From contig CP011489.1 in assembly GCA_001023575.1 (NCBI GenBank), forward strand, positions 558,001-622,000: a stretch of 64,000 nucleotides of DNA, given 5' to 3'. Each line of letters begins with the position of its first letter. Position 1 is the stretch's first letter. Below are positions 26,668 to 55,613 of the stretch, piece by piece. The stretch is from Actinobacteria bacterium IMCC26256 (GTDB taxonomy: Bacteria > Actinomycetota > Acidimicrobiia > IMCC26256). Made by a program: the position numbers and the translations under genes. The notes under the pieces were generated by a model that was not told the origin of the DNA, searched no databases, and saw only the letters and a program-made list of their open reading frames with translations.

Positions 26668-26716
26668 TAGCGCCCCCGGCAGGATTCGAACCTGCGCGCA
26701 CGGTTTAGGAAACCGA
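26668..26716. other. attL: 49 bp copy of the tRNA-Arg 3' part
   Basis: This segment is identical to 55124-55172, which is the 3' 46 bases of tRNA-Arg(CCT) plus 3 bases of flank. It ends in the anticodon arm, after which the sequence diverges (AAAGG versus TGCTC), so it is a truncated tRNA, not a working gene. This is the usual footprint of a tyrosine integrase that uses a tRNA gene as attB and restores the complete gene at the other end. Confidence 0.9.
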
Positions 26717-27018
26717 AAAGGCTGTTCAGTGGCGATCACTGGCGCACAGAAGTGCCTGTTTATATAAGGAGAACGCTGGTTTGTTCGGTAGCGGTCATGC
26801 ACGTCGAGTCAGAGATGTTCCCTCAATGTTCCCTCGGCAGCGCATCGCTCCTTAGGGCCATGGATAGCAATTCGATCTCGGATAGAGACGTGAGATGCGG
26901 CACCACCACCTGCCACTATCCGCCTAGTGGGTAGTTCTATGGGCATTTAGAGTTCTGCCTTGTGGGATGTAACTCAACCGCTTAGGGTGACCATAAACGG
27001 GGGCGGACCCATACGAGT
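26717..27018. other. Island left-end intergenic region
   Basis: About 300 bp between attL and the NHL gene. It holds the left arm-type repeat (26815-26836). No convincing coding frame is present; a 60-residue frame at 26752 has no ribosome site or family features. The promoter of the NHL gene must be here but I cannot place it firmly. Confidence 0.5.
26815..26836 (+). other. Left integrase arm-type site (tandem 11-mers)
   Basis: Two tandem 11-mers, ATGTTCCCTCA and ATGTTCCCTCG, 98 bp inside attL. The same pair, with three substitutions in 22 positions, is 46 bp inside attR (55056-55077) in the same orientation. Paired direct repeats at both ends of an integrative element are what arm-binding domains of tyrosine integrases recognise. 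Confidence 0.6.
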
Positions 27019-30000
27019 ATGTGCTCGGTCGTATGGCATCTAAAGAAAGACAGGGCAGTGACGATTTCTTTACCTAACCAAATGTCGATGCGTAGGTGGC
27101 TAGCTGGTCTCCTCTCGCTCGTTCTGGTCTGTGGTGCCCTTCTCGCTGTCAATGTCGGATCGAAACGTGCGGATGCTCTCCTGCCGGTCTCGCCATGGAG
27201 TTTTGCAACTATCGGGGTAACGGTCGCAGGGCAAGGCGGGATCGGAACCGGAGCAGATCAACTTGAGGCTCCCGCCGGGTTAGTTCTCGATGCAAGTAAC
27301 AATATTTTTGTCGCCGACACAGCTAATAGTCGGATACAAAAATGTGTACACGCCTCCGCTAGCTGCACAACAGTCGCTGGCCAAGGTGGCATCGGTACGG
27401 GTAGCGATCAGCTAGATCATCCGCGCGGTATTGCACTCGACACGAGCGGCAACATCTACATCGCAGACACGGCGAATAACCGGGTACAGAAATGCGCACC
27501 AGACGGTCTGACCTGTACGACGGTCGCTGGCCAGAGCGGAGTCGGTAGCGACCAACTCGATACACCATCAGGGATCGCAGTAGATGCGCTAGGCAGTATC
27601 TACATAGCGGACACGGCTAATAGTCGTGTCCAAAAGTGTTTGCCCGAAAGCCTGACCTGTACGACGGTCGCTGGCCAGGGCGGTGTGGGCACCGATCCTG
27701 ATCAGTTAGATCATCCGCGTGGTGTCGCACTGGATGCCAGCGGCAATATCTATGTAGCGGACACGGCGAATAGTCGTATACAAAAGTGTTTACCCGACGA
27801 GGTTTCATGCACGACGATCGCTGGGCAGGGCGGCCTGGGCTCTGATTATGACCAGCTCTCTAGCCCTAACGGCCTTGAGGTGGATCAGTACGGCAACTTC
27901 TACGTCGCCGACGCGGGTAATAGTCGAGTGCAATTCTGTACAGTCCTTTTGGACTGCACCACACCCGTAGGAGTTGAGGACTCAGGGAACAAGACGAATC
28001 AGGTTGCCGCAGCTCTCGGAGTAGCGGTCGATACGACAGGCAACCTATATATCGCAGACACGAACAACAATCGGGTGGAGGAGTACTACCTAAAAGTCGT
28101 CACTGTCGCAGGCGCCGGTAACCCACGTGATGCAAAAAACCAGCTCATCCTCCCTGCTGGCATAGCGTTAGATGGGAACGGCATCGTCTACGTAGCAGAC
28201 CTAGGGAACAATCGCATTCAGAAGTGTGTGCCAGGATCGCGCACCTGTGCGACGGCGACCTCAAATGGGACCGGCGGTGTATTCGGTGTTGCATTGGATG
28301 CGACAGGGAACATCTATGGCATGGGCCTGGGTAACAGTCTTATCTATATGTGTGCGCCTCTATCGGCGTCCTGTACGACAGTCGCAGGCCAAGGCGGGGA
28401 AGGATCAGGGTCCGACCAATTGGCGAGACCCATGGGTGTCGCCGTAGATGCGAGTGGCAACATTTATATCGCAGATACGCAGAATAATCGTATTCAGAAA
28501 TGTTTTCTAGGTTCGGCGTCTTGTACGACAGTCGCAGGCCAAGGCGGGCAAGGATCAGGGTCCGACCAATTGGCGAGCCCCGTGGGTGTGGCCGTAGATG
28601 CGAGTGGCAACATCTACATAGCGGACATGTCTAATGACCGTATACAAAAATGTGCACCAGACGAAGCGTCGTGTACGACGGTCGCTGGCCAAGGTGGCAT
28701 CGGTACGGGTAGCGATCAGCTAGATCATCCGCGCGGTATTGCACTCAACACGAGCGGCAACATCTACATCGCAGACTCAAACAACAATCGCATACAGAAG
28801 TGCCTACTAGGTTCGACGTCCTGTACGACGGTCGCAGGCCAAGGCGGGAAAGGCTCAGGCGCAGACCAACTCAGCTTTCCATTTGCTGTTGCTGTAAGCG
28901 ATCACGGGATTCTTTACATCTCTGATGTGGCTAACAATCGAGTGCAGAGGTGTGTACCGGGATCGGCGTCCTGTACGACGGTCGCAGGCCAAGACGGTCG
29001 CGGATCGGATGGACCGCCCTACGTCCCTTTGAGCGTGGCCTTGGACGCTAGCGAAAACATCTATTTTACGGGGGGTCCCGCTGGCCCTTACACGGCCGGT
29101 GGCGTTCTGCGGTGCGTGTTAGGCCCAACTAGCTGTGCGACGGTCGCAGGCCAAGGTGGGGAAGGCTCAGGCGCAGACCAACTCTCCTATCCTGCTGGCA
29201 TGGCGTTCGATGCGAGCGGCAACATCTACATCGCAGACTCAAACAACAATCGAGTGCAGAGGTGTGTACCGGGATCGGCGTCCTGTACGACGGTCGCAGG
29301 CCAAGGCGGGAAAGGCTCAGGCGCAGACCAACTGAACCTTCCGACGACAGTGGCTGTAGATGCAATCGGCAACATTTATATCTCAGATCTGCTCAACGAT
29401 CGTGTTCAGAAGTGTGTGCCAGGTTCGACATCCTGTACGACAGTCGCAGGCGGAAACGGTTATGGTTCAGGGGCAGACCAACTCTGGGGCCCATGGGGTG
29501 TGGCGCTGGACGCGAGGGGAAGCATCTATATTTCAGACGCGAATAACAGTCGTGTGCAGAAGTGTGTTCTCGCCTCGGGTGACTGTACGACGGTCGCAGG
29601 GCAAGGTGGATACGGCACAGGATCAGACCAGCTCTCCGAAGCGTTTGGCATAACGGTGGACGTAAGCGGCAATCTCTATATCGCAGACTCGGCCAACGAT
29701 CGTGTTCAGAAGTGTGCTCCAGGCTCGACGTCCTGTACAACAGTTGCAGGCGGAAACGGTGAGGGCTCAGGATCAGACCAGCTCGCCAATCCTTATGGAG
29801 TTGCCGTAGATGTGAGCGGCAACGTATACGTCGCAGACACCGACAATTATCGCGTTCAGAAGGTTTTGACGGCTTGGATGGATCAGACGATTACGTTTGA
29901 TCCGATTAGCGCTCAATCTTCTGCGCTCTCCTCCGTTGCGATGGCGGCTGTTCCGAGTTCTGCTATGTCCACGTCCTCAAGTCTTGGGCTATCCGCGCAC

Positions 30001-31068
30001 GCATCTTCTGGTGCAGGGGTCTCGTTCGTATCTACGACTCCACGGGTGTGTGCGATCAGTGGTGCGACGGTGACGGTCACCGCTGCAGGGACTTGCACGG
30101 TCACAGCTAAACAGGATGGGGTATTCCCCTTCACCGCTGCAGCTCCAGTGTCGCAATCTTTCGTTGGGACTATTGCCCCTTGCTCCACCACACTGCTCTG
30201 CGGGGTGCGTGTGGCTGATAGTGGTGCGAATGAGGGTAGTGGCACTGCTGGTACGACCGTCTCAACAATGTTCGGTACAGATCACCCCACGAGCGAAGCG
30301 CTCTGTGTCTGGTACTCGACCGAAGACGCAACCGCTAACGGTGCAGACCGGATAGATGTTTGGAATGGCACGCAAGACTTCACACGCCTCGGCATAACAA
30401 AGCCCAAGTATGTGATCCTGGGTGCGAATAAGAGCTCTGGGAAGATCTCTGTAAAAATCAACTACGACACGACAATAGAAGAAGACGAGTATTTCAATGT
30501 GGTGGTCTCAAAAGTAACCACCAAAGTTCTCGGGAAATGTGACCCAAATTCTGCTGCTGACCCACGTTTCGTGCTTGTACGCGATACGGGGAGGGTCACT
30601 ATCCACGATGACGATACGAAAGGCCCTCAAACGGCGTTTCGTGTTGCTGATAGTGGCGCTACCGAGGGAAGTGGCCCCGTGGGAACGACAGTCTCTGTGA
30701 TGTTCGGTACGGATCGCCCAACAGCTGCTCCACTATGTGTGTGGTACTCGACCGTCGGGGGTACCGCTACAGGTGCCGATCGGATAACTGCTTGGGACGG
30801 AACACAAGACTTCACACGCCTCGGCATAACAAAGCCTAAGTATGTGATCTTGGGTACTAACAGGACCTCGGGGAAGATCTCTACAAAGATCAACTACGAC
30901 ACGACGATAGAAGAAGACGAATACTTCAATATCGTGGTCTCTAAAGTCACAGCCCAAGTCGGCGGTAGATGCTCATCAGCGTCGCTCGCTGACCCAGGTG
31001 TGGTGGTAACGCGCGATACAGGAAGAGTCACAATCTTCGATGACGACACCCCGCTACCGGAGAACTGA
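27019..31068 (+). CDS. Secreted NHL-repeat beta-propeller protein with Calx-beta-like tail
   Basis: A 1349-residue exported protein. After an N-terminal hydrophobic signal (about residues 24-48) come 18 repeats of about 50 residues with the pattern T-V-A-G-Q-G-G...D-Q-L...G-V-A-V-D-A-S-G-N-I-Y-I-A-D...N-R-V-Q-K-C, i.e. NHL blades enough for three six-bladed propellers. Most repeats carry two Cys, likely disulfides. Then an Ig/Big-like domain (about 955-1045) and two Calx-beta-like repeats with E-E-D-E-Y-F-N calcium-type motifs. No LPxTG or C-terminal anchor is seen. It probably binds a ligand or mediates adhesion. Start uncertain: ATG 27019, GTG 27058 or ATG 27082. It is the first cargo gene of the island. 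Confidence 0.85.
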   Translation: MCSVVWHLKKDRAVTISLPNQMSMRRWLAGLLSLVLVCGALLAVNVGSKRADALLPVSPWSFATIGVTVAGQGGIGTGADQLEAPAGLVLDASNNIFVADTANSRIQKCVHASASCTTVAGQGGIGTGSDQLDHPRGIALDTSGNIYIADTANNRVQKCAPDGLTCTTVAGQSGVGSDQLDTPSGIAVDALGSIYIADTANSRVQKCLPESLTCTTVAGQGGVGTDPDQLDHPRGVALDASGNIYVADTANSRIQKCLPDEVSCTTIAGQGGLGSDYDQLSSPNGLEVDQYGNFYVADAGNSRVQFCTVLLDCTTPVGVEDSGNKTNQVAAALGVAVDTTGNLYIADTNNNRVEEYYLKVVTVAGAGNPRDAKNQLILPAGIALDGNGIVYVADLGNNRIQKCVPGSRTCATATSNGTGGVFGVALDATGNIYGMGLGNSLIYMCAPLSASCTTVAGQGGEGSGSDQLARPMGVAVDASGNIYIADTQNNRIQKCFLGSASCTTVAGQGGQGSGSDQLASPVGVAVDASGNIYIADMSNDRIQKCAPDEASCTTVAGQGGIGTGSDQLDHPRGIALNTSGNIYIADSNNNRIQKCLLGSTSCTTVAGQGGKGSGADQLSFPFAVAVSDHGILYISDVANNRVQRCVPGSASCTTVAGQDGRGSDGPPYVPLSVALDASENIYFTGGPAGPYTAGGVLRCVLGPTSCATVAGQGGEGSGADQLSYPAGMAFDASGNIYIADSNNNRVQRCVPGSASCTTVAGQGGKGSGADQLNLPTTVAVDAIGNIYISDLLNDRVQKCVPGSTSCTTVAGGNGYGSGADQLWGPWGVALDARGSIYISDANNSRVQKCVLASGDCTTVAGQGGYGTGSDQLSEAFGITVDVSGNLYIADSANDRVQKCAPGSTSCTTVAGGNGEGSGSDQLANPYGVAVDVSGNVYVADTDNYRVQKVLTAWMDQTITFDPISAQSSALSSVAMAAVPSSAMSTSSSLGLSAHASSGAGVSFVSTTPRVCAISGATVTVTAAGTCTVTAKQDGVFPFTAAAPVSQSFVGTIAPCSTTLLCGVRVADSGANEGSGTAGTTVSTMFGTDHPTSEALCVWYSTEDATANGADRIDVWNGTQDFTRLGITKPKYVILGANKSSGKISVKINYDTTIEEDEYFNVVVSKVTTKVLGKCDPNSAADPRFVLVRDTGRVTIHDDDTKGPQTAFRVADSGATEGSGPVGTTVSVMFGTDRPTAAPLCVWYSTVGGTATGADRITAWDGTQDFTRLGITKPKYVILGTNRTSGKISTKINYDTTIEEDEYFNIVVSKVTAQVGGRCSSASLADPGVVVTRDTGRVTIFDDDTPLPEN
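27373..29868 (+). repeat. About 150 bp intragenic repeats encoding the NHL blades
   Basis: The 18 blades are also repeated in DNA. Some are nearly identical over about 100 bp, for example 27373-27467 against 28681-28775, which differ only around the codon Asp versus Asn. Others share the 5' portion GTCGCAGGCCAAGGCGGG. This points to recent duplication or gene conversion between blades. Confidence 0.75.
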
Positions 31069-33058: not shown

Positions 33059-34048
33059 ATGGTTGATGGTCCTCTAGGTGTCGCGAGCCGAATCAAATGG
33101 CAAGACGAAACCGTGTGGAGAGCTTTGCCCGAATGGTCAAAATTTTATTTTGACTTAGGAGCCCACATTGTTTCGGTCGAAGACGCTAACGAGAGATCTA
33201 TTACTGCACTTTTGGTTCCAACTCGATCATTCGTGTCGGCGTTTATAGCCCTGGGAGCAGTCGCTGCCGCTATAGAAACGGAAGGCGAGGATGCAACCAA
33301 TGACGAAATGCTGAAGACGATTGCTCAACTCCCTTCCGGCGCGATTCTCACAAGTATGCGGGCTGGAAAGAAGGTTAAGTTCAAATTTAGGGAGTTAACC
33401 ACTACTCATGTCGTTATGTACAACAACGCTGCAGGGTTGCTTGAGCGCATTCCGCTAGAGCGAGCCCATACGATTTCTATAGGCGGAGTCGGGAGGGACG
33501 AGTACCCGAGCGCGAGAAACTCAGCAGCTAAGCAATCATGGGAACCGGAGTTCATTGAGGATGCACTCGGCATCAGTGATGCGACTGAGTACGTGAGGAG
33601 AGATAATTTTGCGGCCCTCATTGTTGGCAGGCTGAATCTCCTGAGCGAGGAATTGGAGCGAACAGGTTTTTCGGTTCGAGTCAACGGAAAGCGGCGCAGG
33701 GGACACCTCGAAGATATTCTCCGCACGCGCAAATTCGCTGACGATGACCTTGGGGAGGCCTTCAGAACTGATGTGATGTCAGAGACGGCACGCGAACTCC
33801 TTCCGGAAGTTGCGGCGCTTGCCCCGCCATTGATTGTTTTCGACAGCAGCCATGCTTTCCTCAAACACCGGAATTCATTTCCGAGCGGGAATTGGGTCGC
33901 AGTAGTCGATCGTTCCTCGGATCGATCAGTCGAGTCAGTCGAGGTCTTGAACCAACTTTACGCTCAGAGGCTCAGAAGCGACGAGCTATCGGATTCACTT
34001 GAATTACCACCAGGAGTTGATGCGATGTCATTCATGATGTCTCGATGA
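33059..34048 (+). CDS. Operon gene 1: unknown, possible N-terminal half of a split DrmE
   Basis: A 329-residue protein without a motif I can name with certainty. The N-terminal 130 residues are alpha/beta; the later part has a segment P-P-L-I-V-F-D-S-S-H-A-F-L then N-W-V-A-V-V-D-R-S-S, a pair of hydrophobic strands ending in Asp that is reminiscent of DrmE proteins of class 2 DISARM. Start ATG 33059 follows GGGGGA by 6 bases. Its stop overlaps the next start (ATGA at 34045), so the two products are probably made in equal amounts. Together they total about 840 residues, near the size of one DrmE chain. This link is inference. Confidence 0.5.
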   Translation: MVDGPLGVASRIKWQDETVWRALPEWSKFYFDLGAHIVSVEDANERSITALLVPTRSFVSAFIALGAVAAAIETEGEDATNDEMLKTIAQLPSGAILTSMRAGKKVKFKFRELTTTHVVMYNNAAGLLERIPLERAHTISIGGVGRDEYPSARNSAAKQSWEPEFIEDALGISDATEYVRRDNFAALIVGRLNLLSEELERTGFSVRVNGKRRRGHLEDILRTRKFADDDLGEAFRTDVMSETARELLPEVAALAPPLIVFDSSHAFLKHRNSFPSGNWVAVVDRSSDRSVESVEVLNQLYAQRLRSDELSDSLELPPGVDAMSFMMSR

Positions 34049-35583
34049 CTGCTGGAACCTTCGACGTCAAAACCACTACACAGATCTACTCTGTAGCCGA
34101 GCGCGCCAAACTTGGTTGGTTCACTGTTGACCATGATGGCTTCAGGGAATTCTCTCTTTCACTCCAGCAACTTAAGCGCGGGCTAGGTGAGAGGCTCGCA
34201 GTCGACCACTGGGTCGAGTTCATCGGGATACTTAACCGCGCACGCTGGCGCTACAGCATCACTCCACTACCTTTCAATTCGCCAGCCTTTGGCACACGGC
34301 AAATATCCGAGCAGTTGCCGAGCCTTTTAAGAAGGATCTCGGCCCACGAACCCCCTGGTTTTGTAGCAGAGGCAGAGGAATTAGCAGCACAGGCACAATC
34401 CCTTATCCAATCGCCGAGTGACTCCTTAACAGATTGCGTGATAGAGCTCATAAGGGCGGATAAGGCCCCGAAAGGGACACTCGTTGTTCCGAAAGCGACT
34501 TACCAGTCAGCGATTGCTGCCCACCTGGCGCATCGAGCTCGTGGAATTGGGATTGATGTCGTAACACCACGAGAACTTGCGTTGCTCGGAGCGAGAGAAG
34601 CAATAACAGTCGTTGGCTCAACCGTCTGGTACCGAGGAATGGATCATGTATTCGTAACGCCGCGCGCAAGTCGCGTAATGATGGTTCGCTGGGAGTGGAT
34701 AAACGAGACACTTCCGAGTGAAGAGAGATTTGCGGGTGGGCATCGAGGTAAACGGAGGGAACCAACTCCTCCGCCAAGTCCCAAAGCGAGAGAGTCCATC
34801 GCTGCATCGGAGATAACTCCCGAAATTGATTGGGGTGGCGTCGGCTCCGTATTTACAGATGGTGCGGGGGCAGCATCGGCGGGCGAGCTTGTTGAGTGTC
34901 GCCTATGGGCCCTTGCTAATGGTTGGGCAGTCGCTACCCGCACAGATACTGACGCAACGATCCGAACGGTCGATCCCTCCCTGGAGGGAGTAGCGCGAGT
35001 AGGCGAGAGTGCAATAGCTGACCTTGAGGTCGGAGATTATGTTGCGTTACGAAGTGGCGGCGGCGGCGATGTCATTGCAGAGATAGCCGACCTGCAAATT
35101 GGTGAGGATGCAGCGCGATTAAGAGGGCTGCAAAAACTCTGGAAGGGCGAGCTCCGTCAACGAATTCGTCTGAATTCAGCTGAGGGCGTCGCCAAAACCA
35201 TCGGAACCTCCGCCCAGAATGTGCAAAATTGGGCGTCAGACAGCCCTAACAAAATTGGACCAGGTAAGAAAGAAGACTTCGTTCGTGTTTTGACTTTTCT
35301 GGGGTTGAAAGATCGCAGTAACGAGATGTGGAGTGCCGTCAAGCGGCTTCGGAGCGAGCACCATAAAGCAGGAACGGTGTTCACTAAAAGCCTTGTTTCC
35401 AAGATAAGTACCGCTGATTTGAGTCAGCTCGAGAACACTGGATCAATGATAGTGACCCTAAACGGGGTCCAAGGCGCTCCGATGCAGGTATGGCGTATTG
35501 AGGACCGGTCCGAAGAAACCTTGATGGTCCCTGAGACTCTGATCCTAAGACCAATAGAGGTTGGTGACCTGTGGCACGGATGA
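34045..35583 (+). CDS. Operon gene 2: possible C-terminal half of DrmE
   Basis: A 512-residue protein. The middle region (T-L-V-V-P-K-A-T-Y, I-D-V-V-T-P-R-E-L, T-V-V-G-S-T-V-W-Y-R-G-M-D) looks like the second RecA-like lobe of a helicase without its catalytic loops. The C-terminal 150 residues read V-G-D-Y-V-A-L-R-S-G, then L-R-G-L-Q-K-L-W-K and a helix-turn-helix V-Q-N-W-A...I-G-P-G-K-K-E-D-F, followed by H-H-K-A-G. I recall this layout from the C-terminal domain of DISARM DrmE, but cannot verify it without a search. It overlaps both neighbours by ATGA. Confidence 0.5.
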   Translation: MTAGTFDVKTTTQIYSVAERAKLGWFTVDHDGFREFSLSLQQLKRGLGERLAVDHWVEFIGILNRARWRYSITPLPFNSPAFGTRQISEQLPSLLRRISAHEPPGFVAEAEELAAQAQSLIQSPSDSLTDCVIELIRADKAPKGTLVVPKATYQSAIAAHLAHRARGIGIDVVTPRELALLGAREAITVVGSTVWYRGMDHVFVTPRASRVMMVRWEWINETLPSEERFAGGHRGKRREPTPPPSPKARESIAASEITPEIDWGGVGSVFTDGAGAASAGELVECRLWALANGWAVATRTDTDATIRTVDPSLEGVARVGESAIADLEVGDYVALRSGGGGDVIAEIADLQIGEDAARLRGLQKLWKGELRQRIRLNSAEGVAKTIGTSAQNVQNWASDSPNKIGPGKKEDFVRVLTFLGLKDRSNEMWSAVKRLRSEHHKAGTVFTKSLVSKISTADLSQLENTGSMIVTLNGVQGAPMQVWRIEDRSEETLMVPETLILRPIEVGDLWHG

Positions 35584-37295
35584 TTCCTCCGGTTTTTGAC
35601 CCAATGAATCCAAGCCCAGGGGAACGCATTCTGTTCGACCAACTTCGTGACGATTCCTTAACCGAGCGTTGGACCGCCCTCCACTCTCTTGATCTACCAA
35701 AGCATATTAATCAATCCGTTGGGGAAATTGACTTCGTTGTAATAATTCCCGGCCAAGGTGTTGTTTGCTGCGAGGTTAAAGGTCATAAGAAAATTCGACG
35801 CGTGGATGGCGCCTGGTACCTTGGCCAAAATCAGTCTCCTGACTACAGGGGGCCATTCAAGCAAGCAGCAGACGGGATGTATTCGCTCCGACAACGTGTC
35901 CGGACTGCGATGCCTGACCAGAACCAAACGATCTTCACTTCGGTAGTGATAGTGCCTTTTCTAGATGATCTAGAGAAACAGCAACACGCCGAATGGGAAG
36001 ATTGGCAATTGATTACAAAGAAGAAGCTGAACGAGACTGGAATAGGAAATCTTCTTACGCAGGCAATTGAACAGGAACGCCAACGCCAAGCCTCTCCGCC
36101 GAAGAGCTCTGGCTTCGAACTAAAGAAGAGCAATGCCCTGGTCTCTTACCTTCGCCCTGATTTTGAAATGTTTGTGTCACCAGCCGAGCGCAGACTGGAG
36201 CGGCGTGCGGACCTCCTTAGATTCACGGGTGAGCAGCTCGAGGCACTCGATCTGATGGGAAGTAATCGCCAAACGTTGTTTGAGGGACCAGCCGGAACCG
36301 GCAAGACGGTCTTGGCAATAGAGGAGGCCCGCCGCGCCGCACTCTCAAATGAGAAAGTGCTATTTATTTGTTACAACAACTGGCTTGCCAAGAAAATAGC
36401 TCGTGAATTCAAAGACGAAGAAGCTGTAACCGTTCGCACTCTTGGGGCCCTTTACCTAGACATTGTCGGGCGAGAAACCCCCGCTATTGGGCGAGACAGT
36501 GAATGGTGGGATCACGAGCTTAGGGAGCAAGCAATCGAAGTGCTTCTGGATCGTGGTTACCCTGGAGACTTCGATTTGATGATCATTGATGAGGCACAAG
36601 ATATTTTCGCCCTAGGTGGTCTTGAAGTAATTGACCTTATTGGCCAGGATTTATTGCGCTCGGGAAGGTGGCGCATGTTCGGGGACTTTGAGCGACAAGC
36701 AATTTTTGGTGATCCCTCGAGCGCACTTGCCGAATTACGAAACATCTCGCCGCAGATTACTCATTTTCCGCTCACGAAGAACTGCAGAAATACACCAAGG
36801 ATCGTCAGCTTTATAGAGATGGCCTCGGGGATGGTCCCCGGTTATGCGAAGATCCTCCGCTCTGACGACAAGGTGGACCCAAGTGTGTCGTATTACAAGA
36901 ATGAAACCAAACAAGGAGCGCTGCTCCAGCAGAGTATCGAATCGCTCCTAGAGGAGGGCTTCGAGAACGGCGAGATTGCAGTGCTCTCACCGAAACGAAA
37001 AGGAATTTCAACGATCATAAATGGGGATCTTCAAGAGCAGCTCGGAACTGATTCGGAAAGCCTTGATGATGATCTAATCGTCGTGGCGACGATTAGAAAA
37101 TTCAAAGGGCTCGACAGACCGGCAGTCATAATCACGGATATTGATGATGTGTCTACACCAGCCTCTGAAGCGATGTTTTATACAGGCATGACACGAGCAA
37201 CGGATCGCCTAATCGTATTAATCGCGCATGATCAACAAGCTAATGTCAGAGACAAACTTGCGAAGTTCGCACAAATCAAGGGGCAGCAGAAGTGA
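35580..37295 (+). CDS. NERD nuclease-domain SF1 (UvrD-like) helicase
   Basis: About 571 residues. An N-terminal NERD domain (about 10-110) has its nuclease-like residues: G-E-I-D-F-V-V and C-C-E-V-K-G. It is followed by an SF1 helicase: Walker A G-P-A-G-T-G-K-T near 240, Walker B I-I-D-E-A-Q-D-I, T-K-N-C-R-N-T, K-F-K-G-L-D and T-R-A-T-D-R-L. It should translocate on and perhaps cut DNA. I prefer the ATG at 35580 (ATGA overlap with the previous stop) over the GTG at 35571. It ends in a GTGA overlap with the drmA-like gene. DrmC, the nuclease of DISARM, is absent and this protein could take its place. Confidence 0.85.
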   Translation: MIPPVFDPMNPSPGERILFDQLRDDSLTERWTALHSLDLPKHINQSVGEIDFVVIIPGQGVVCCEVKGHKKIRRVDGAWYLGQNQSPDYRGPFKQAADGMYSLRQRVRTAMPDQNQTIFTSVVIVPFLDDLEKQQHAEWEDWQLITKKKLNETGIGNLLTQAIEQERQRQASPPKSSGFELKKSNALVSYLRPDFEMFVSPAERRLERRADLLRFTGEQLEALDLMGSNRQTLFEGPAGTGKTVLAIEEARRAALSNEKVLFICYNNWLAKKIAREFKDEEAVTVRTLGALYLDIVGRETPAIGRDSEWWDHELREQAIEVLLDRGYPGDFDLMIIDEAQDIFALGGLEVIDLIGQDLLRSGRWRMFGDFERQAIFGDPSSALAELRNISPQITHFPLTKNCRNTPRIVSFIEMASGMVPGYAKILRSDDKVDPSVSYYKNETKQGALLQQSIESLLEEGFENGEIAVLSPKRKGISTIINGDLQEQLGTDSESLDDDLIVVATIRKFKGLDRPAVIITDIDDVSTPASEAMFYTGMTRATDRLIVLIAHDQQANVRDKLAKFAQIKGQQK

Positions 37296-40200
37296 CTTCA
37301 AGCAATCACATCGATAATCGAGAAGTCATCGTCGATGCCCTACGCGCAGAGCTAGTAGGGCCCGATCCGCAGGGACCCGAGGTTGAGTGCCGGGGAAGTG
37401 CATCGATTCATGTTGATGATCCGAGGGCACCGCATCGCCAAAGCGGTTCCGGGGAAGAAATTTTAACTGGCGATGCGCCCCTGACCCGTTACGGAATAGG
37501 CGTCCTATTTCCAATAGCTGTGTCCGACGATCCACCTCCCGAGAATGAAGAAGACGGTTCGATGGAAACCCCGGATCAAGGTAGTGAGGAGGAGGCCCTA
37601 GAGGCATTTATCGATGAGGGGGGGCAGGAGATTGAAAAGGTCATGGACCGATTCGAGCGTGGAAACTCGAGAGGTGAAGGCCCAGACGAGGAGCCGTCTT
37701 TAGCAGGCGCCAATGACCGCCAGCCCTCCGCTATGGCAGTCAGTTTCCTGCTTGACGTGACTGACGTAGATGAGTTGAACGTCGAAATCACTGGCGGACG
37801 ATACACCGCTCGAAAGGTTAACCACGACCCTACCTCTAAGGCTTGGCAGCCAACATGGTGGCTACGTACCCCCGTGAAAATTGTTTCTACATTCGAAATC
37901 CAAACATTGCTCGCAGCAAAAGGGAAACGAATAAGCGGAACCGTCGTCCTCGATGAAGGTTCCGGCCCGATCAGCATCGAAGCATTTTGTGTAGCCCGAG
38001 CACATGCTCCCAACCAGCTTCTCCTCACCGTTGGAATTATCAATCGCTCAGTTCAGGTGACCGGAGATGATCGCATCAACGACTGGCGGACTGCTTCATG
38101 TCTCTTCCAAAGCGCCTTTACCGTATCGCCAGGAGTTGGGTCAAGCAGTTCAGTGCTTCCGTACCCGCAGCGCGGCGGGCTCGAACGTGACGACGAGGAA
38201 TGGTCACTCGAGCTCCTATACCGTGATGTGCAGACATTTGCTATAGGGCATGGATGCTCGGCGGATTGGGACACGCGTGATGGTGCGTCGAGGGCTAATG
38301 CCGTGCGTGCCGAATGCCTCCCCGCCTTCGAGACCCCAAGCATTACCCCAAACGTTACTGGGCCCGACGGTCAACCAATTTTTGTGCCGATGGCTCCACT
38401 TGCAGGCCTAATACCAGAGGACAACGGTATGGGCAATGTCGCACAGATCATCAACGGCTATGAGGAGTGGATTGACTCGAAACGCGACTCCATTAGTGAA
38501 TTGGAGCCAGAGGAGCTGAAGTTGCATGCTCGGCGACACATCAAAGAATGCGAGCGAATGTTGTCTCGCATGCGAAAGGGCGTTGAGTTCTTAGAGGGGG
38601 ATGCAAAAGCTAGGCGTGCATTTCAACTAGCTAATCGAGCAATCCTCTTTCAACAGATCCGAGCTGGAGCACCTGTGCGACTCTTGGAATGGGACAAGCG
38701 TGATAAGAAAATCGGACACAAAGATCCGATGCTCACACCTGATCCGCTCGTGCCGACGGCAGGGCGTGGACAGTGGCGCCCTTTCCAGATCGCCTTCCTC
38801 CTAGCGGCTATTGAAACAACTGCGCTCCCATTGCATGAGGATCGGGAGCTAGTTGATCTCATTTTCTTCCCAACAGGAGGCGGAAAGACCGAGGCTTATC
38901 TGGCGCTAGCTGCTTTCGCCACGTTCTATCGCCGCCTAAGCGACCCAGAGGACCTTGGCACAAACGTCCTTATGCGCTACACGCTTCGCCTGCTAACCGC
39001 ACAACAGTTCCAACGCGCAGCGGCACTCATCTGTGCAATGGAAATAATCCGCCAGACTGAGGATGACAAACTTGGAGGGCACTTTTCTATCGGTATCTGG
39101 GTAGGAAATTCGGTTACGCCGAACGATAAGGCAGCGGCGCTCAAAATGTTAAGTGAGTTAAACAAGGGCGATGGATACGCTGATAACGGTTTTCTTGTTA
39201 CGCGGTGTCCTTGGTGTGCTGCACAGATTGGACCCATTAATTACCAAGGAAAGAAACCGAAATATGCACCGGTGCAGGTCGGCTACGAGCAGAAAGTTGA
39301 CACTGTAATTATCAAGTGTACCGATCATGAGTGCGCCTTCAGCGGTGGTTTGCCGGTCCGAGTAATTGACCAAGAGATATACGAACACCGACCAGACATC
39401 ATCATTGGGACTGTCGATAAGTTTGCTCGCCTCATTTGGCGTGACGACACGCGATCGATATTCGGTATCGGACAAAATGGGGAGCGCGAATATTCACCCC
39501 CAGGGCTAATTATTCAAGATGAGCTGCACCTAATTTCAGGTCCCTTGGGTTCAATGGTCGGGATGTTCGAGACGCTTATCGATGTGCTGTGCTGCCAAGA
39601 GCACGAAAGCGGAGAGGTAACTCGCCCAAAAATCGTAAGCTCAACGGCAACAATAAGACGGTATTCGGAGCAAACAAAAGCTCTCTTTGCACGCGACGAC
39701 GTAGCCCTATTTCCGCCGAGGGGGCTTGAGGCTGGGGATTCATATTTTGCGACCTATGCAAGAGATGCATCAGGGGAGCTGAGCGTTGGTAGGCGATACG
39801 TTGGAATTCTGGGTACGAGTCTCGGATCGCACCAGACAGCACAGACGCGATCCGCAGCGACTGCGCTTTACGTCGCCAATCTCCTCGGGGGCCCAGAAGC
39901 GGCGGACCCCTGGTGGACAGTCCTCTCGTTCTATAACAGTCTTCGCGAACTGGGTGGGGGTTTATCGCTGTACCAACGAGACATTAAGGAGTACATGTGG
40001 ACCTTGCACCTTCGGAAGGGTCTTCCAAACACCTCTTTGCGGTCATTCCACCGCGTCGAGGAACTCACAAGCAGAATTCGCAACCAAGATGTTCCTGACC
40101 GTCTGGCCCAACTTGAAGTCTCAACGACAGATCCGAATCAGGAAGCGATCGATGCATGCCTAGCGACGAGCATTATTGAAGTTGGAGTTGACATTGACCG

Positions 40201-40822
40201 ACTTTCTTTGATGGCAATCATCGGGCAGCCCAAGACCACAGCCCAATACATCCAAGTATCCGGGCGTGTAGGACGCCGGTGGCAGGAGAGGCCGGGCCTG
40301 ATCCTCACCGTTTATAGCCCCACAAAGGCTCGTGACAGATCACATTTCGAAAAATTCCGCTCGTACCACGAACGCCTCTACGCTCAGGTCGAACCTACAA
40401 GCGTGACGCCATTCGCTCCGCCAGTTCAAGAGCGCGGACTACACGCCTTACTAGTCGCATTCATCCGCCAATTCGGGCCTACCGCTGATGTCCAGTCACC
40501 GTATCCCGTTCCGATTGCGCTCATTAACAGGGCAAAGGAGGCCATCGAAGCCCGCGTCAATATCGTCGACCCCGACGAGAGCCGCACTGCTCTCGAAATG
40601 CTGCAACGTCGCATTAAGGAGTGGCAGCGATCGGGGGCGACCAAGTGGCAGCGTGAGGGCTCCGTCGACGTCGATTTTCTGATTCGTCCAAGCGGCGAGT
40701 ACATCGAAGCAAAGCTTGCTAGGACCACATGGGCGTTACCGACGTCTCTACGTGATGTAGATGCAAGCTGCGAAGCGACCATCACCTCCCACTACTCAGC
40801 GCACTTGCCAAATACGCCATAG
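37292..40822 (+). CDS. drmA: DISARM-type helicase DrmA
   Basis: A 1176-residue SF2 helicase. Walker A is F-F-P-T-G-G-G-K-T-E-A-Y-L near residue 527, motif II is Q-D-E-L-H-L-I-S-G near 743, and motifs V/VI are S-I-I-E-V-G-V-D-I-D and Q-V-S-G-R-V-G-R-R near 965-990. A zinc ribbon (C-P-W-C and C-T-D-H-E-C) is inserted between motifs I and II. The 500-residue N-terminal part and the FPTGGGKTEAYL/DELH pattern are what DrmA proteins show. DrmA forms a complex with DrmB that loads on phage DNA in known DISARM. GTG start within GTGA overlap. The drmB-like gene follows after 20 bp. Confidence 0.85.
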   Translation: MTSSNHIDNREVIVDALRAELVGPDPQGPEVECRGSASIHVDDPRAPHRQSGSGEEILTGDAPLTRYGIGVLFPIAVSDDPPPENEEDGSMETPDQGSEEEALEAFIDEGGQEIEKVMDRFERGNSRGEGPDEEPSLAGANDRQPSAMAVSFLLDVTDVDELNVEITGGRYTARKVNHDPTSKAWQPTWWLRTPVKIVSTFEIQTLLAAKGKRISGTVVLDEGSGPISIEAFCVARAHAPNQLLLTVGIINRSVQVTGDDRINDWRTASCLFQSAFTVSPGVGSSSSVLPYPQRGGLERDDEEWSLELLYRDVQTFAIGHGCSADWDTRDGASRANAVRAECLPAFETPSITPNVTGPDGQPIFVPMAPLAGLIPEDNGMGNVAQIINGYEEWIDSKRDSISELEPEELKLHARRHIKECERMLSRMRKGVEFLEGDAKARRAFQLANRAILFQQIRAGAPVRLLEWDKRDKKIGHKDPMLTPDPLVPTAGRGQWRPFQIAFLLAAIETTALPLHEDRELVDLIFFPTGGGKTEAYLALAAFATFYRRLSDPEDLGTNVLMRYTLRLLTAQQFQRAAALICAMEIIRQTEDDKLGGHFSIGIWVGNSVTPNDKAAALKMLSELNKGDGYADNGFLVTRCPWCAAQIGPINYQGKKPKYAPVQVGYEQKVDTVIIKCTDHECAFSGGLPVRVIDQEIYEHRPDIIIGTVDKFARLIWRDDTRSIFGIGQNGEREYSPPGLIIQDELHLISGPLGSMVGMFETLIDVLCCQEHESGEVTRPKIVSSTATIRRYSEQTKALFARDDVALFPPRGLEAGDSYFATYARDASGELSVGRRYVGILGTSLGSHQTAQTRSAATALYVANLLGGPEAADPWWTVLSFYNSLRELGGGLSLYQRDIKEYMWTLHLRKGLPNTSLRSFHRVEELTSRIRNQDVPDRLAQLEVSTTDPNQEAIDACLATSIIEVGVDIDRLSLMAIIGQPKTTAQYIQVSGRVGRRWQERPGLILTVYSPTKARDRSHFEKFRSYHERLYAQVEPTSVTPFAPPVQERGLHALLVAFIRQFGPTADVQSPYPVPIALINRAKEAIEARVNIVDPDESRTALEMLQRRIKEWQRSGATKWQREGSVDVDFLIRPSGEYIEAKLARTTWALPTSLRDVDASCEATITSHYSAHLPNTP

Positions 40823-40842
40823 CTAGAGAATCGGATAATCAG

Positions 40843-42828
40843 ATGCCTTACAATAGATCCCCATTGCGCCGAGCAGACCTAGTGACCAACGCCGGAGTTG
40901 GGGCGATGTTCACAACACCCGAGAGAATCTCACTCATCACCGCAGGGCTTGACCACTGGTTCGAACGCGAGTCCACAAATTCGAAATCAGGGATCGACGC
41001 CTCTGAGTATCGAGTCGAGGAGTGGCGGCTCCAGCGGAGCTTGGGCGTTTCTCATTTCCGACTCCCACCGGACTACAGACCGAGTTGGCAGTTCGGGGGA
41101 ACGGAGAAGAACCTTGAGCTCACGATCCCGGCACTGCGTTTCCCTTGTTGGTATGTCTGTCGTAACTTGCAATGCCGAACCTTGGTGAGGCTCCCATTGA
41201 CCGTCAATAACACCCAAATGTGCCCTGCCTGTCACGCTAAGGGAAAGAAGTCGCGCCTAGGCCAAGTCGATTTTGTAGCGATCTGCCCGTCCGGACATCT
41301 GCGGGATTTCCCTTGGTACTCTTGGTGCCATAGAACAATGGATGACCCAGATCCCGCGCCTGTGTCGCTTCCTTGTCGCGGGACGATGTCCTTCAAGGCG
41401 GTCGGTGGCGCCTCCCTAGCATCACAAATAGTTAGGTGCACTTGTGGTGCTCATCGAAACCTATCTCGCATCACCTTCGGCGATTCCACGACAAGTGTCT
41501 TAAGCGGCGAAATGGTGCCAAGGCAATCTGCGGAGTTCTTATGCGATGGACAGATGCCTTGGAACGGTACCGATGATCAGGGAAGGGTTCGGAGGTCGAG
41601 TATTGGCTGCGGGAAACCGCTTGTTGGCGCACTAAGGACTGCATCGAATGTCTACTACAGCATTGTTCGGAGTGCCATCTACCTGCCACGTAGCACATCC
41701 ATGGCTCCGCGTGAGCTCATCGCGCTGTTAGAGGAACCAACGCCGTCTCAGATGATCAACCTGTTCGTGACACCAGAGACGATTGATTTAGGTGAACTCG
41801 CTACTTTGCTGAGGGACGTAATCGGCGCCGCAGCAGATGACTTCACTGATCAACAGTTTGAGAATGCGATTAGGGTTTTCACGAATCGTGTTGACCCGGA
41901 TACTCCAGCACTGCCTAATGTCGAAACTGACGATGCTGCTACCGCCTTTAGGCGTGCAGAATTTGGTGTGCTGAGGGAGCCGCAAGACGCTGACGAGCTC
42001 AGGATTCGCAAAGCAGATGTCGCCGATTACGGGCCGTTGATTCAATCTAATTTTGAAAGAATAATGCTCGTTGATTCGTTGCGCGAGACGCGCGCTTTCG
42101 TTGGCTTCTCAAGGCTCCAATCCTCAGTCGGTGCTAATGGACTGGACCCAAGATCTGCGTTGCGATACGAGTCGACGGAGTCGCCGAATGATTGGTTGCC
42201 CGCATATGTAGTTCATGGAGAGGGTATCTACCTAGAGCTTGACCCAAATCGAGTGCGCGAGTGGGAAACTAGGGCGAGTGTCATTGCCCGTGCGGCGCAG
42301 ATCCTACGAAATTATGAAGCGAGTCGCTCCAAGAACAAGACCAATGCCGAGCTAGGAGTGACATTAACTCCTCGATTTCTATTGCTCCATGCATTGGCGC
42401 ACGCTCTACTTAATAAGATGACTTTCGATGCCGGGTACTCGACGGCCGCCTTACGCGAGCGCATTTTTGCTAGCGATGACCCCTCGGCGCCAATGGCTGG
42501 GCTCCTCATTTACACAGCGGCTGGAGATGCTGACGGGACAATGGGGGGTTTGGTTAGGCTCGGTAGACCAGGCATGCTCCGGTCCACGATAACTCGAGCT
42601 ATTGATGATGCGCGATGGTGCTCAGCTGATCCCGTATGTATGGAGATAAGTCATCACGGAGGCCAAGGGCCCGGGGCGTGCAACCTCGCCGCCTGCCATG
42701 GATGTTCACTCGTAGCAGAGACCGCCTGCGAGCATTTCAACCGGTTTCTAGACCGTGGGGTTCTTATCGGTGACCCCGAAGTCCCTGACTTGGCGTTCTT
42801 CCCAGATGATCAGTCACTTGGAATTTGA
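40843..42828 (+). CDS. drmB: DrmB (DUF1998 protein)
   Basis: A 661-residue protein. The N-terminal third has zinc sites (C-R-N-L-Q-C, C-P-A-C, C-P-S-G-H-L-R-D-F-P-W). The C-terminal DUF1998 domain (about 505-645) reads L-L-H-A-L-A-H-A-L-L...S-T-A-A-L-R-E-R-I, G-L-L-I-Y-T-A-A-G-D-A-D-G-T-M-G-G-L-V, A-R-W-C-S-A-D-P-V-C and N-L-A-A-C-H-G-C-S-L-V-A-E-T-A-C-E, the classic DrmB ending. In known DISARM it binds DrmA and helps sense unmodified incoming DNA. The order drmA-drmB directly adjacent is the conserved DISARM core. Confidence 0.88.
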   Translation: MPYNRSPLRRADLVTNAGVGAMFTTPERISLITAGLDHWFERESTNSKSGIDASEYRVEEWRLQRSLGVSHFRLPPDYRPSWQFGGTEKNLELTIPALRFPCWYVCRNLQCRTLVRLPLTVNNTQMCPACHAKGKKSRLGQVDFVAICPSGHLRDFPWYSWCHRTMDDPDPAPVSLPCRGTMSFKAVGGASLASQIVRCTCGAHRNLSRITFGDSTTSVLSGEMVPRQSAEFLCDGQMPWNGTDDQGRVRRSSIGCGKPLVGALRTASNVYYSIVRSAIYLPRSTSMAPRELIALLEEPTPSQMINLFVTPETIDLGELATLLRDVIGAAADDFTDQQFENAIRVFTNRVDPDTPALPNVETDDAATAFRRAEFGVLREPQDADELRIRKADVADYGPLIQSNFERIMLVDSLRETRAFVGFSRLQSSVGANGLDPRSALRYESTESPNDWLPAYVVHGEGIYLELDPNRVREWETRASVIARAAQILRNYEASRSKNKTNAELGVTLTPRFLLLHALAHALLNKMTFDAGYSTAALRERIFASDDPSAPMAGLLIYTAAGDADGTMGGLVRLGRPGMLRSTITRAIDDARWCSADPVCMEISHHGGQGPGACNLAACHGCSLVAETACEHFNRFLDRGVLIGDPEVPDLAFFPDDQSLGI

Positions 42829-42887
42829 AGATCTGAGCCGGAGAAGGCAGAAAGCCAGTACGAATCCGGCGGAGGCTTTTCTTTATT

Positions 42888-44108
42888 TTGGCATGGGTTT
42901 TTTACAAGTCGATCGAAAGCGATGATTGGTTGACCCAGGCCGGAAGTAAAGTCATTTTCATCAAACCATCGCCTGCACCTACTGATTCGACTGCCATCCT
43001 CACTCCCGGTGCGCACTCCCCATTTTCCTTCATTGACCTGTTCGCAGGGATAGGTGGATTCCATCTAGGCATGGTTGCGAACGGAGGGGTTTGCCGATTT
43101 AGCAACGAATGGAATAAGTACGCTGCTATTACATATAAAGCGTGGACCGGATGCTTAGATTCCTTAGACGGTGGTAATTTCTTCGGCGGTGATATTCGTC
43201 TCCTAGTCGAGGACGGAGTGATCCCAACCGTCGACGTTCTCTGTGCTGGCTTTCCTTGTCAGCCATTCTCCCTAGCAGGGGTATCAAAGAAGAATTCTTT
43301 GAAAAGGCCTCACGGGTTCTTAGATGCGGAACAGGGGAATCTTTTTGATGCCATCTGTGAAATAGCCGCGGCGACTAAGCCACGCGTGCTGTTCCTGGAA
43401 AATGTAAAGAACTTGAAGAGCCATGACAAGGGACAGACTTGGAGAGTAATCACCGAAAAGTTGGACCACTTGGGATACGAGCTAAAGCACGAGGTCATAG
43501 ATGCCGCAGGTTGGGTGCCCCAGCACCGAGAGCGAGTATTCATGGTTGCATTCAGGCGCGGGGTAATCGAACCGAGCGAAATTGCATCATTCCATTTTCC
43601 TGATTACCCGAGAAAGCGTCCCAAACTGGGTTCAATTCTTGAAAAAGATCCGGATAAAAAGTACATGCTCTCAGACAACTTATGGGCCTATCTGCAGGCG
43701 TATGCCGAGAAGCATAGAAAGCTTGGAAATGGGTTTGGCTTCGGGCTCGTAGGACCAGAAGATATATCTAGGACAATGTCGGCCCGCTATCACAAAGATG
43801 GGAGCGAAATACTAATTGACCAACCCGACTGGAAAAATCCGCGCCGCCTCACCCCGAATGAAGCAGCGAAGCTAATGGGTTTTAACTCCAAGTTTGCAAA
43901 ATTAATGGGGCATGGTACGGAGTTCCCGATTGTTGTCTCAGACACGCAGGCCTATCGCCAGTTTGGGAACTCGGTTAGCCCGATCGTTGTAGAAGCAGTC
44001 GGGGCAGAGATCGCCCGGGTATTACAGATGCGACTTGATCGCCTGTCTGCAAAACGCGACCGAAAGCACCAAGCGAGAGCAACCGTGCCAAAACAGAAAC
44101 AGCAATGA
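42888..44108 (+). CDS. drmMII: C5-cytosine DNA methyltransferase (DrmMII type)
   Basis: About 406 residues; adds a methyl group to cytosine C5 in a specific DNA site. Motif I is F-I-D-L-F-A-G-I-G-G-F near 48, motif IV G-F-P-C-Q-P-F-S with the catalytic Cys near 124, motif VI E-N-V-K-N-L, motif VIII Q-H-R-E-R-V-F, motif X R-Q-F-G-N-S-V-S-P. The start is a TTG at 42888 with GGAGG about 12 bases upstream; no ATG exists before motif I. It marks host DNA as self for DISARM class 2. The presence of an EcoRII-N protein in the operon suggests that both may recognise the same site, possibly CCWGG-like; this is inference. ATGA overlap with the next gene. Confidence 0.93.
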   Translation: MAWVFYKSIESDDWLTQAGSKVIFIKPSPAPTDSTAILTPGAHSPFSFIDLFAGIGGFHLGMVANGGVCRFSNEWNKYAAITYKAWTGCLDSLDGGNFFGGDIRLLVEDGVIPTVDVLCAGFPCQPFSLAGVSKKNSLKRPHGFLDAEQGNLFDAICEIAAATKPRVLFLENVKNLKSHDKGQTWRVITEKLDHLGYELKHEVIDAAGWVPQHRERVFMVAFRRGVIEPSEIASFHFPDYPRKRPKLGSILEKDPDKKYMLSDNLWAYLQAYAEKHRKLGNGFGFGLVGPEDISRTMSARYHKDGSEILIDQPDWKNPRRLTPNEAAKLMGFNSKFAKLMGHGTEFPIVVSDTQAYRQFGNSVSPIVVEAVGAEIARVLQMRLDRLSAKRDRKHQARATVPKQKQQ

Positions 44109-45880
44109 ATATAGGGGCAGGGCGACCTTGGATTGAGGTCGATGGAGAACTGCGTACCGATCTCGGTGAACCGGTGACGACTGATGAGGTAACGACCCGG
44201 CTACAAACAGATAGAGACCTTCTAAAAGTCGAGTTGCCCACACTGCGGTTTTCGCCTATCGCTTTAGAGCCAATCGTCAGGATGAGCGGTACCTTCCCAG
44301 ACGGCATTGTCCTAGAGTATGGGCTTAAGAAGAACGGCATTTTCCATGCCGTAGGTGCTACTAGAGACAACGTAATTCTTGGGGTTACGTGGCATCCCAT
44401 CAATCTAGTTTCGAGAGCGTTACTGCTCGATGAGCTCAGCTCTGTTCCGTGCGATATCGGCGCCATTGATGCGGAGTCGTCAATTAAATTAAGCGCAGCA
44501 CTAGCGGGTAGCGCAAGATTTAGTGACGAGGTTGAGCGCTCGGAAGCAATAATTTGGGCGACATCAGGCAGTAAAGATGCCGTACCCGATCAACTAAATG
44601 CGGAGCTTTACCCCTATCAGATAGTTGGTCTACAGGCGCTAAGGAAGCTTGCCGAGCACAATGTAGGGGCGCTACTTGCTGACCAAATGGGCCTCGGGAA
44701 GACGCTTCAGGCGATTGCTCTCATGACCGCTCTAGAGCCTTTGAAGCAGGTCCTCGTTGTCGTCCCTGCTTCACTCATCGAGAACTGGATCAGGGAACTT
44801 GCTCAGTTTGCTCCAACACTTAAGGTCCTGGCACATTTCGGATCTAACCGGGTTGGGCTTGCGTCGCACTTTGAGGGAATCGACGTAATCGTAACGACCT
44901 ATGAGACCGTAATAGCCGACCTCCATTTACTCTCCGATGTGACGTGGGACCTGGTGGTACTTGACGAGGCACAGAAAATCAGAAACCCTTCCTCGCAGAG
45001 AGCAATCGCAACGAAGATGCTTCCGCGTCGACTTGGCGTGGCCGTCACGGGGACACCTGTCGAGAATTCACTCAGAGATCTCTGGTCCCTCTCAGAGTTC
45101 ATACTCCCTTCGCTTCTCGGTGGGTTAACAGCCTTTGAGCAACAGTTCCCAGACGAGGTTGAAGCGGCAATGCGGCTAGGAAGAATCGTTGCACCGCTCA
45201 CAATCCGTCGCCATGTGGCTGAAGTTGCTGGCGACCTTCCCGAAAAGGTCGAAATTCTAAAGTCGTTTACATTGCCAGCCAGCGAGCGCTCGATTTACAT
45301 GGAGATCGAATCGAAAGGCTCCGCATTTGAAACTAATACCGAGTGTCGTGTCGCATGTGCGCATGCGAGCAAATCGGCACTGTTGGGCTCCTCTGCTTTC
45401 GCTTCCATGCCGAAGGTCGAACATCTGTCAGATCTATTGGCCGAAATTTTCGTTCGGGGAGAAAGCGCACTGATTTTCGGTTCGTTCTCCCTGAGCCTGA
45501 TCCGTTTGAAAGATTACCTTGGCACGATATTTCCTAGGAATCATTTTGCGATTCTTGATGGGAGTGTGGCTGCGGGGGAGCGACAGTTGGCTGTCGATAC
45601 GTTCACGGAGAACCGTCGCCCTGGAGTGCTCCTCCTCAATCCTCAAGTGGGAGGCGTCGGATTGAACATAACTGCTGCAAACCATGTGGTTCATTTCAAT
45701 CCTGAGTACAACCCAGCGGTAACGGAGCAAGCAACAGCGAGGGCCTATCGGAGAAAACAGGAGTTACCGGTATTCGTGCATCATCTCTATTATTCGAATA
45801 CGGTTGAGGAGTCGGCAGTAGCTATCGCTGATGCTAAGCGAGCGGTCGCTCAGGGAGTTGACCACGGCGTTCGGGAATAG
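44105..45880 (+). CDS. SNF2-family DNA translocase/helicase
   Basis: A 591-residue protein: 165 residues of unknown N-terminal domain, then a full SNF2 ATPase. Motifs: D-Q-M-G-L-G-K-T (near 192), V-V-P-A-S-L-I-E-N-W, V-L-D-E-A-Q-K-I-R-N-P (DEAQ in place of DEAH), T-G-T-P-V-E-N-S, L-N-P-Q-V-G-G-V-G-L-N-I-T-A-A and Q-A-T-A-R-A-Y-R. Class 1 DISARM has an SNF2 protein, DrmD, but that is usually near 1000 residues; this shorter form could belong to the MORC module instead. It overlaps the methyltransferase stop by 4 bp and is 31 bp from the EcoRII-N gene. Confidence 0.88.
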   Translation: MNIGAGRPWIEVDGELRTDLGEPVTTDEVTTRLQTDRDLLKVELPTLRFSPIALEPIVRMSGTFPDGIVLEYGLKKNGIFHAVGATRDNVILGVTWHPINLVSRALLLDELSSVPCDIGAIDAESSIKLSAALAGSARFSDEVERSEAIIWATSGSKDAVPDQLNAELYPYQIVGLQALRKLAEHNVGALLADQMGLGKTLQAIALMTALEPLKQVLVVVPASLIENWIRELAQFAPTLKVLAHFGSNRVGLASHFEGIDVIVTTYETVIADLHLLSDVTWDLVVLDEAQKIRNPSSQRAIATKMLPRRLGVAVTGTPVENSLRDLWSLSEFILPSLLGGLTAFEQQFPDEVEAAMRLGRIVAPLTIRRHVAEVAGDLPEKVEILKSFTLPASERSIYMEIESKGSAFETNTECRVACAHASKSALLGSSAFASMPKVEHLSDLLAEIFVRGESALIFGSFSLSLIRLKDYLGTIFPRNHFAILDGSVAAGERQLAVDTFTENRRPGVLLLNPQVGGVGLNITAANHVVHFNPEYNPAVTEQATARAYRRKQELPVFVHHLYYSNTVEESAVAIADAKRAVAQGVDHGVRE

Positions 45881-45911
45881 TGAGGCGGGCGGTAATCGAA
45901 CAGGGGGAATT

Positions 45912-49301: not shown

Positions 49302-49535
49302 ATGACAAGCATTGACCCCTATTTCAACGAAGGCGAGGACAACCCCGTTTTCAGCGCTAGAGAGGCTGCCGCATACCTCAGCGTCTCTAAAAGTACCTTC
49401 CATAAGTTGCGCCGCAACAAGGAGTTCCCCGTCAGCATGTTCATGGGCGACTTGCGAGTGCGCAGGAGCGACCTGAATCGGTTCATTCGCGACCACCTCG
49501 AAGGTGGCAATACAGGGAAGGGCAGGGATAACTAA
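49302..49535 (+). CDS. Excisionase-like helix-turn-helix protein
   Basis: A 77-residue DNA-binding protein of the excisionase/HTH_17 type: F-S-A-R-E-A-A-A-Y-L-S-V-S-K-S-T-F-H-K-L-R, then the wing V-S-M-F-M-G-D-L-R-V-R-R-S-D-L-N-R-F-I. AGAGAGGAACG precedes the ATG. Its TAA overlaps the integrase ATG (TAATG), the usual xis-int arrangement. It should set the direction of recombination toward excision and may repress its own promoter at the nearby inverted repeats. Confidence 0.85.
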   Translation: MTSIDPYFNEGEDNPVFSAREAAAYLSVSKSTFHKLRRNKEFPVSMFMGDLRVRRSDLNRFIRDHLEGGNTGKGRDN

Positions 49536-55055: not shown

Positions 55056-55077
55056 ATGTTCCTTAAATGTTCCTTCG
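55056..55077 (+). other. Right integrase arm-type site (tandem 11-mers)
   Basis: ATGTTCCTTAA and ATGTTCCTTCG in tandem, 46 bp inside attR. It matches the left site (26815-26836) at 19 of 22 positions in the same orientation. Confidence 0.6.
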
Positions 55078-55123: not shown

Positions 55124-55172
55124 TAGCGCCCCCGGCAGGATTCGAACCTGCGCGCACGGTTTAGGAAACCGA
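55124..55172. other. attR: 49 bp repeat within the intact tRNA-Arg
   Basis: Identical to 26668-26716. It covers the 3' part of the tRNA-Arg gene from the anticodon stem to the 3' end plus 3 bases. Because the tRNA here is complete, this is the side where integration restored the gene. Confidence 0.9.
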
Positions 55173-55198
55173 TGCTCTATCCCCTGAGCTACGGGGGC
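55127..55198 (-). tRNA. tRNA-Arg (anticodon CCT)
   Basis: A 72-base cloverleaf on the minus strand. The acceptor stem GCCCCCG pairs with CGGGGGC, the D-arm is GCTC/GAGC, the anticodon loop TTCCTAA gives CCT (55163-55165 on the complement) for the AGG codon, and the T-arm is GCAGG-TTCGAAT-CCTGC. CCA is not encoded. It is the insertion site of the island to its left. Confidence 0.95.
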
Positions 55199-55613
55199 GG
55201 GGATGGCGCAGATTGTCGAGCGAGATAGGTGCGCAACGGCCCGCGGACCATTGGAGGAGAATAGTGCGGGGGCCATGAAGAGGGCGAAAGTCCAGTTAGA
55301 TATGCCTCAAGATTTGACCCCTGATTCGGCCCAACAAAGCGACCCGGTCAGAGCATTCCGATGGCCGTGGGTCAAGGGAGGCTTGGCGAGCCCTTAGCCG
55401 GGTAATTTCAATTCGCCCCTACACCCTCTCCTCAATCCTTAGCGGAGGAGCGATAGCCGGGGTCCTCGCTGCGAGGGATTCCCATCGGCACCACAGTTTC
55501 AATGTGACCTAGGTCATCAACCACTATCCGATTACATCTGGTCCGGGCTAGATGGATTTTGTCTACCAACAGCGAGGCCGAGCTAAGAGCCTCGAACGGA
55601 AATGGAGAAAGTT
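55199..55613. other. Rhodopsin upstream region with a 12 bp palindrome
   Basis: About 415 bp between tRNA-Arg and the rhodopsin gene. The only clear element is the perfect palindrome TGACCTAGGTCA at 55505-55516, about 100 bp before the start codon. A 64-codon frame at 55203 has no family features. I see no riboswitch or terminator. Confidence 0.5.
55505..55516. promoter_or_regulatory. Palindromic operator candidate before the rhodopsin gene
   Basis: TGACCTAGGTCA is a perfect 12 bp dyad about 98 bp upstream of the rhodopsin start at 55614. It has the size of a dimeric repressor or activator site. No regulator gene is adjacent; the binding protein is unknown. Confidence 0.4.

Follow-up and report, generated by a model that had tools for sequence, protein, structure and literature searches.

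The stretch of DNA analysed here (the window; 64,000 nucleotides of Actinobacteria bacterium IMCC26256, contig CP011489.1, positions 558,001 to 622,000) carries a mobile defence island of 28.5 kb that is bounded by attL and attR cores (Table 1). The core, TAGCGCCCCCGG...AAACCGA, is repeated perfectly over 49 bp and includes the anticodon stem–loop of tRNA-Arg(CCT), the sole tRNA gene of the window. The core is the 3' part of this tRNA and the intact gene lies at one end, which is the arrangement that defines a tRNA island. In phages that integrate in this way, crossover commonly takes place in the anticodon loop (PMC10865867). A search for the empty attB in three incomplete congeners gave a sole matching contig, which stops before the tRNA. 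The cargo includes a NERD helicase in addition to the genes listed in Table 1; just outside the island lies a rhodopsin-like gene, for which no relative was found in the three incomplete congeners.

Table 1. Features of the island and its borders (positions are those of the window)
Feature	Position	Strand	Basis or remark
attL core, 49-bp exact copy of the tRNA-Arg(CCT) 3' part	26668..26716	-	Exact direct repeat; displaced chromosomal half
Arm-type site 1, attL arm, ATGTTCCCTCA	26815..26825	+	Putative; sequence match
Arm-type site 2, attL arm, ATGTTCCCTCG	26826..26836	+	Putative; sequence match
1349-aa NHL-repeat protein	27019-31068		First gene inside attL; weak Calx-beta match
DISARM-like cluster	34045-46352		
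DrmE-like C-terminus	34045-35583		DISARM-like cluster; weak
drmA	37292-40822		DISARM-like
drmB	40843-42828		DISARM-like
Cytosine methylase	42888-44108		DISARM-like cluster
SNF2 helicase	44105-45880		DISARM-like cluster
EcoRII-N domain protein	45831-46352		DISARM-like cluster
MzaB-like HATPase, then protein with type IV restriction enzyme-like C-terminus	46352-48875		
77-aa HTH_17 protein, putative excisionase (RDF)	49302..49535	+	PF12728, E 1.4e-10
Tyrosine integrase (Int), 363 aa	49535..50626	+	Catalytic domain PF00589 (E 1.4e-27); profile match and predicted fold
DarT/DarG toxin–antitoxin pair	50667-52030	opposite	Between integrase and attR
Arm-type site 1, attR arm, ATGTTCCTTAA	55056..55066	+	Putative; sequence match
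Arm-type site 2, attR arm, ATGTTCCTTCG	55067..55077	+	Putative; sequence match
attR core, exact 49-bp repeat in tRNA-Arg(CCT)	55124..55172	-	Direct-repeat comparison
Intact tRNA-Arg(CCT)	55126..55198	-	3' part donated by island
Rhodopsin-like protein	55602-56342		Outside island, beside tRNA; read from sequence

Just inside each end of the island lies a tandem pair of 11-bp units, ATGTTCCCTCAATGTTCCCTCG (26815-26836) on the attL side and ATGTTCCTTAAATGTTCCTTCG (55056-55077) on the attR side. The two 22-mers are identical at 19 of 22 positions, share a strand and have an internal period of 11; the gap between core and pair is 98 bp on the attL side and 46 bp on the attR side, or about 105 and 85 bp when counted from the anticodon loop, the likely point of crossover. 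Positions, likeness, orientation and distances are thus exactly those given by the initial annotation, which had taken the pairs for likely integrase arm sites and for independent support of the island boundaries. Full-score 11-bp units occur four times across the whole island, always within the two pairs. Arm-type repeats flank the core on both sides in the manner of a lambda-type attP.

The likeness of the two pairs exceeds what the local sequence would produce: when 250-bp segments of the window were paired at random, 19/22 in either orientation was attained by just 2 of 2000 pairs. The genome is a single contig of 2,461,858 bases, in all of which ATGTTCCN4ATGTTCC with up to one mismatch is found at these two places only, and the many further copies outside the island that would have spoken against a role at its ends were not seen. 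The next-best matches (six with two mismatches, and four for a control with the pattern reversed) are about equal in frequency. As independent support for the island boundaries the pairs hold as well.

Within the island, the HTH_17 gene lies directly upstream of int, so close that its stop and the int start share one base; its product is very probably an excisionase. The catalytic residues R...K...HxxR...H...Y of the integrase are present, and in an alignment of 37 sequences R201, K226, R299 and H322 are invariant, while conservation is 90 % or more at H296 and Y332. The AlphaFold model (mean pLDDT 89.2) predicts an N-terminus with strands at residues 9-13, 17-23 and 29-34 and a helix at 37-52, i.e. 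a beta-beta-beta-alpha unit spanning residues 9-52, after which come the core-binding and catalytic domains. The closest structures include full-length lambda Int (1z1b), which aligns across nearly the whole length of the protein, and Tn1549 Int. Judged from this predicted fold, Int would possess a separate N-terminal arm-binding domain, and its modelled plan is that of integrases which read arm-type sites with the N-domain. Two observations count against assigning the pairs to this integrase: the N-domain has no Pfam arm-domain match, and 4.5 kb, occupied by darT, darG, an ATPase gene and an unknown gene, separate int from the attR core, whereas most relatives have int beside the tRNA. One relative (L050) has a comparable 4.5-kb gap between int and tRNA.

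Integrase scans of public genome contigs and of viral contigs yielded no relatives, and these were consequently drawn from whole genomes, the searches of which gave integrases 23-36 % identical to that of the island. Eight islands with both core copies, the present one included, were examined, and each contains an integrase-family gene or fragment. Seven of them, again counting the present island, have a tandem pair inside each end whose period is exactly 11; the word is common to the two ends, the orientation is shared, and the edge of the core is about 50-125 bp away. In the eighth (L090) the near pair is present and the strict far-end criterion failed. The words vary from island to island (CGTGCCACTTC, CATCCCACATC, AGGTCACGCCA, ATGGCACGTCC), and none of the examined islands has pairs inverted between its two ends. 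Among 12,000 segment pairs drawn at random from the eight loci none had a shared tandem pair of period 10-12, nor did the flanks outside the islands contain a matched pair. Considering all 38 tRNA-linked cases, 27 have a period-11 repeat that is exact (8/8) and lies 45-115 nt past the tRNA 3' end, compared with 0.7 % of control segments, and each of the periods 6-10 and 12-18 accounts for 0-2 cases among the same near arms. When the near pair was used for a blind search of the rest of the locus, six far matches were obtained, all beside the second core copy (6/6 correct, including the present window, and no false match). Because identity does not exceed 36 % even for the nearest integrases, a relative with the same word plus an intact integrase was not found, which also counts against the assignment to Int. 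The att/int record of pMLP1, of which 2 kb was covered, contains no comparable matched pair.

Several further features were observed at these loci. A conserved (C/G)(A/T)GGTC(AG) element occupies the first 8-12 nt past the tRNA 3' end in L051, L084, L104, L107, L120 and others; it is found in 21 of 37 near arms, against 8.7 % in the control, is inverted on the far arm in several relatives and is possibly a bending or accessory-protein site. Other relatives have a strong hairpin right past the tRNA 3' end, perhaps a replacement tRNA terminator. In L098, L099 and L088 integration is tandem or side by side: adjacent elements have their cores and integrases at a single tRNA, and small islands contain integrase fragments.

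The pairs might be thought to reflect chance or simple-sequence likeness, given that unrelated bacteria have 11-bp ATGTTCCTTNR arrays and that 22 genome and 20 viral stretches were picked up in scans for the degenerate pair, some of them being longer tandem arrays or members of one viral lineage. By our own arithmetic, however, about 15 chance matches are expected in 257 Gb, this genome has the exact pair nowhere except at the two ends of the island, and in relatives the pairs are placed far more regularly than chance would allow. We therefore regard this explanation, which is refuted by the genome-wide, control and far-end counts, as extremely improbable. The degenerate matches in public contigs are mostly chance or simple arrays of 11 bp, accompanied by no related integrase. 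The one informative match, in an actinobacterial MAG (L136), is ATGTTCCCTAAATGTTCCCTCG, a pair identical at 21/22 positions, with an integrase C-terminal remnant 1-2 kb off and a CAGGTCAG element adjoining the pair. Separately, an IMG/VR viral lineage (L148, L149, L151-L156, L160-L162, L166-L167) has a ATGTTCCYTAAATGTTCCTT pair that is nearly constant and stands in a context other than that of an integrase.

The arm word was compared with the integrase by Mantel correlation in 22 elements, L098 and L099 being left out because their full-length integrase is situated beyond the resolved island. Similarity of the arm words rises with identity of the N-domains (r=0.275, p=0.004) and does so too when the catalytic domain is partialled out (r=0.26, p=0.007), whereas the contribution of the catalytic domain itself is small (partial r=0.09, p=0.15); a version with 24 elements agrees. 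Arm words thus follow the integrase N-domain more than the catalytic domain. The correlation is modest, and we count its small size against the pairs being Int sites. It seems fairly probable that a broad actinobacterial integrase group uses a private 11-bp arm word per element, present twice per arm at an almost constant distance from the tRNA end (its start being some 50-78 nt past it) and co-diversifying with the N-domain. Such a word would act as a private address label, by which the far end of an island could be found without knowing the core.

This covariation bears on two other candidate ligands. In a lambda-type attP bending sites are situated between core and arms, and the pairs could accordingly be sites of an IHF-like host bender common to both ends; since the word differs per element and follows the integrase N-domain, unlike a host-factor site, we consider this most unlikely. 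Binding by the excisionase, or by another island regulator, is suggested by the HTH_17 gene adjoining int and by direct repeats about one helical turn apart, which fit cooperative HTH binding, paired direct repeats being typical of excisionases too. Yet lambda-type excisionases bind mainly one arm and the pairs here are on both arms, the arm word covaries with the integrase N-domain, and no arm-like unit scoring at least 9/11 was detected around the xis or int starts, so that this possibility appears improbable, if less so than the other alternatives.

We conclude that the two 22-bp pairs are, with a probability of about 0.93, four arm-type binding sites of the island's own lambda-type tyrosine integrase. 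The initial suggestion of arm sites is strongly supported overall: by the integrase encoded in the same island, which is of the lambda type and has an N-domain predicted to bind arms, by two-ended pairs of 11-bp period with other words in related islands, by the success of the near pair alone in predicting the far end, and by the covariation of arm word and Int N-domain.

Comparable arrangements are known from phages. CrimD, Angelica, Anaya and Adephagia (cluster K1) have an attP whose core stands between two pairs of putative arm sites of 11 bp (PMC3203893). These phages likewise use a tyrosine integrase (those of Anaya and Angelica are about 29 % identical to the island's), but K1 targets tmRNA, with another word, and its P3/P4 are inverted relative to P1/P2, whereas both island pairs are direct. 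Direct arm-site pairs lie either side of the core in the attP of L5 and Giles (PMC3203893), as they do in the island, although L5 has further arm sites and none were recognized here. In cluster J phages (Omega, BAKA) direct arm-repeat pairs flank a 44-bp core that starts in the tRNA anticodon loop (PMC3706429); their repeats are of 10 bp rather than 11 bp, and arm-like sites occur also at the int start, where the island has none. Lambda shares with the island the whole-protein fold (1z1b) and the arm-plus-core logic, and differs in having five arm sites and an Int of 21-22 % sequence identity.

In the circular form the order would be pair, 46 bp, core (the tRNA-Arg-CCT 3' part), 98 bp and pair, giving an attP of roughly 240 bp in which both pairs stand in direct orientation around the core. 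Each arm would offer two sites spaced by 11 bp, about one helical turn. By analogy with lambda, L5 and related systems, we suggest that Int may bridge arm pair and core, the N-domain holding the arm pair and the core-binding and catalytic domains the core, and that crossover may take place in the anticodon loop. The distances of about 105 and 85 bp would leave space for a DNA bend on each side of the core. Bending and the HTH_17 excisionase may together choose between integration and excision, with the HTH_17 protein favouring excision, and the island may still be able to move.

Paired arm sites are already known elsewhere; what is added here is the confirmation of the boundaries and the evidence for element-specific arm words that follow the N-domain. 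The pairs fix the boundaries of a 28.5-kb island with DISARM-like and DarTG genes. Further, period-11 arm pairs are regular enough to serve in locating islands and in assigning them to their integrase, and the relatives constitute a natural set of matched N-domains and DNA words from which the way that arm domains read DNA may be worked out.
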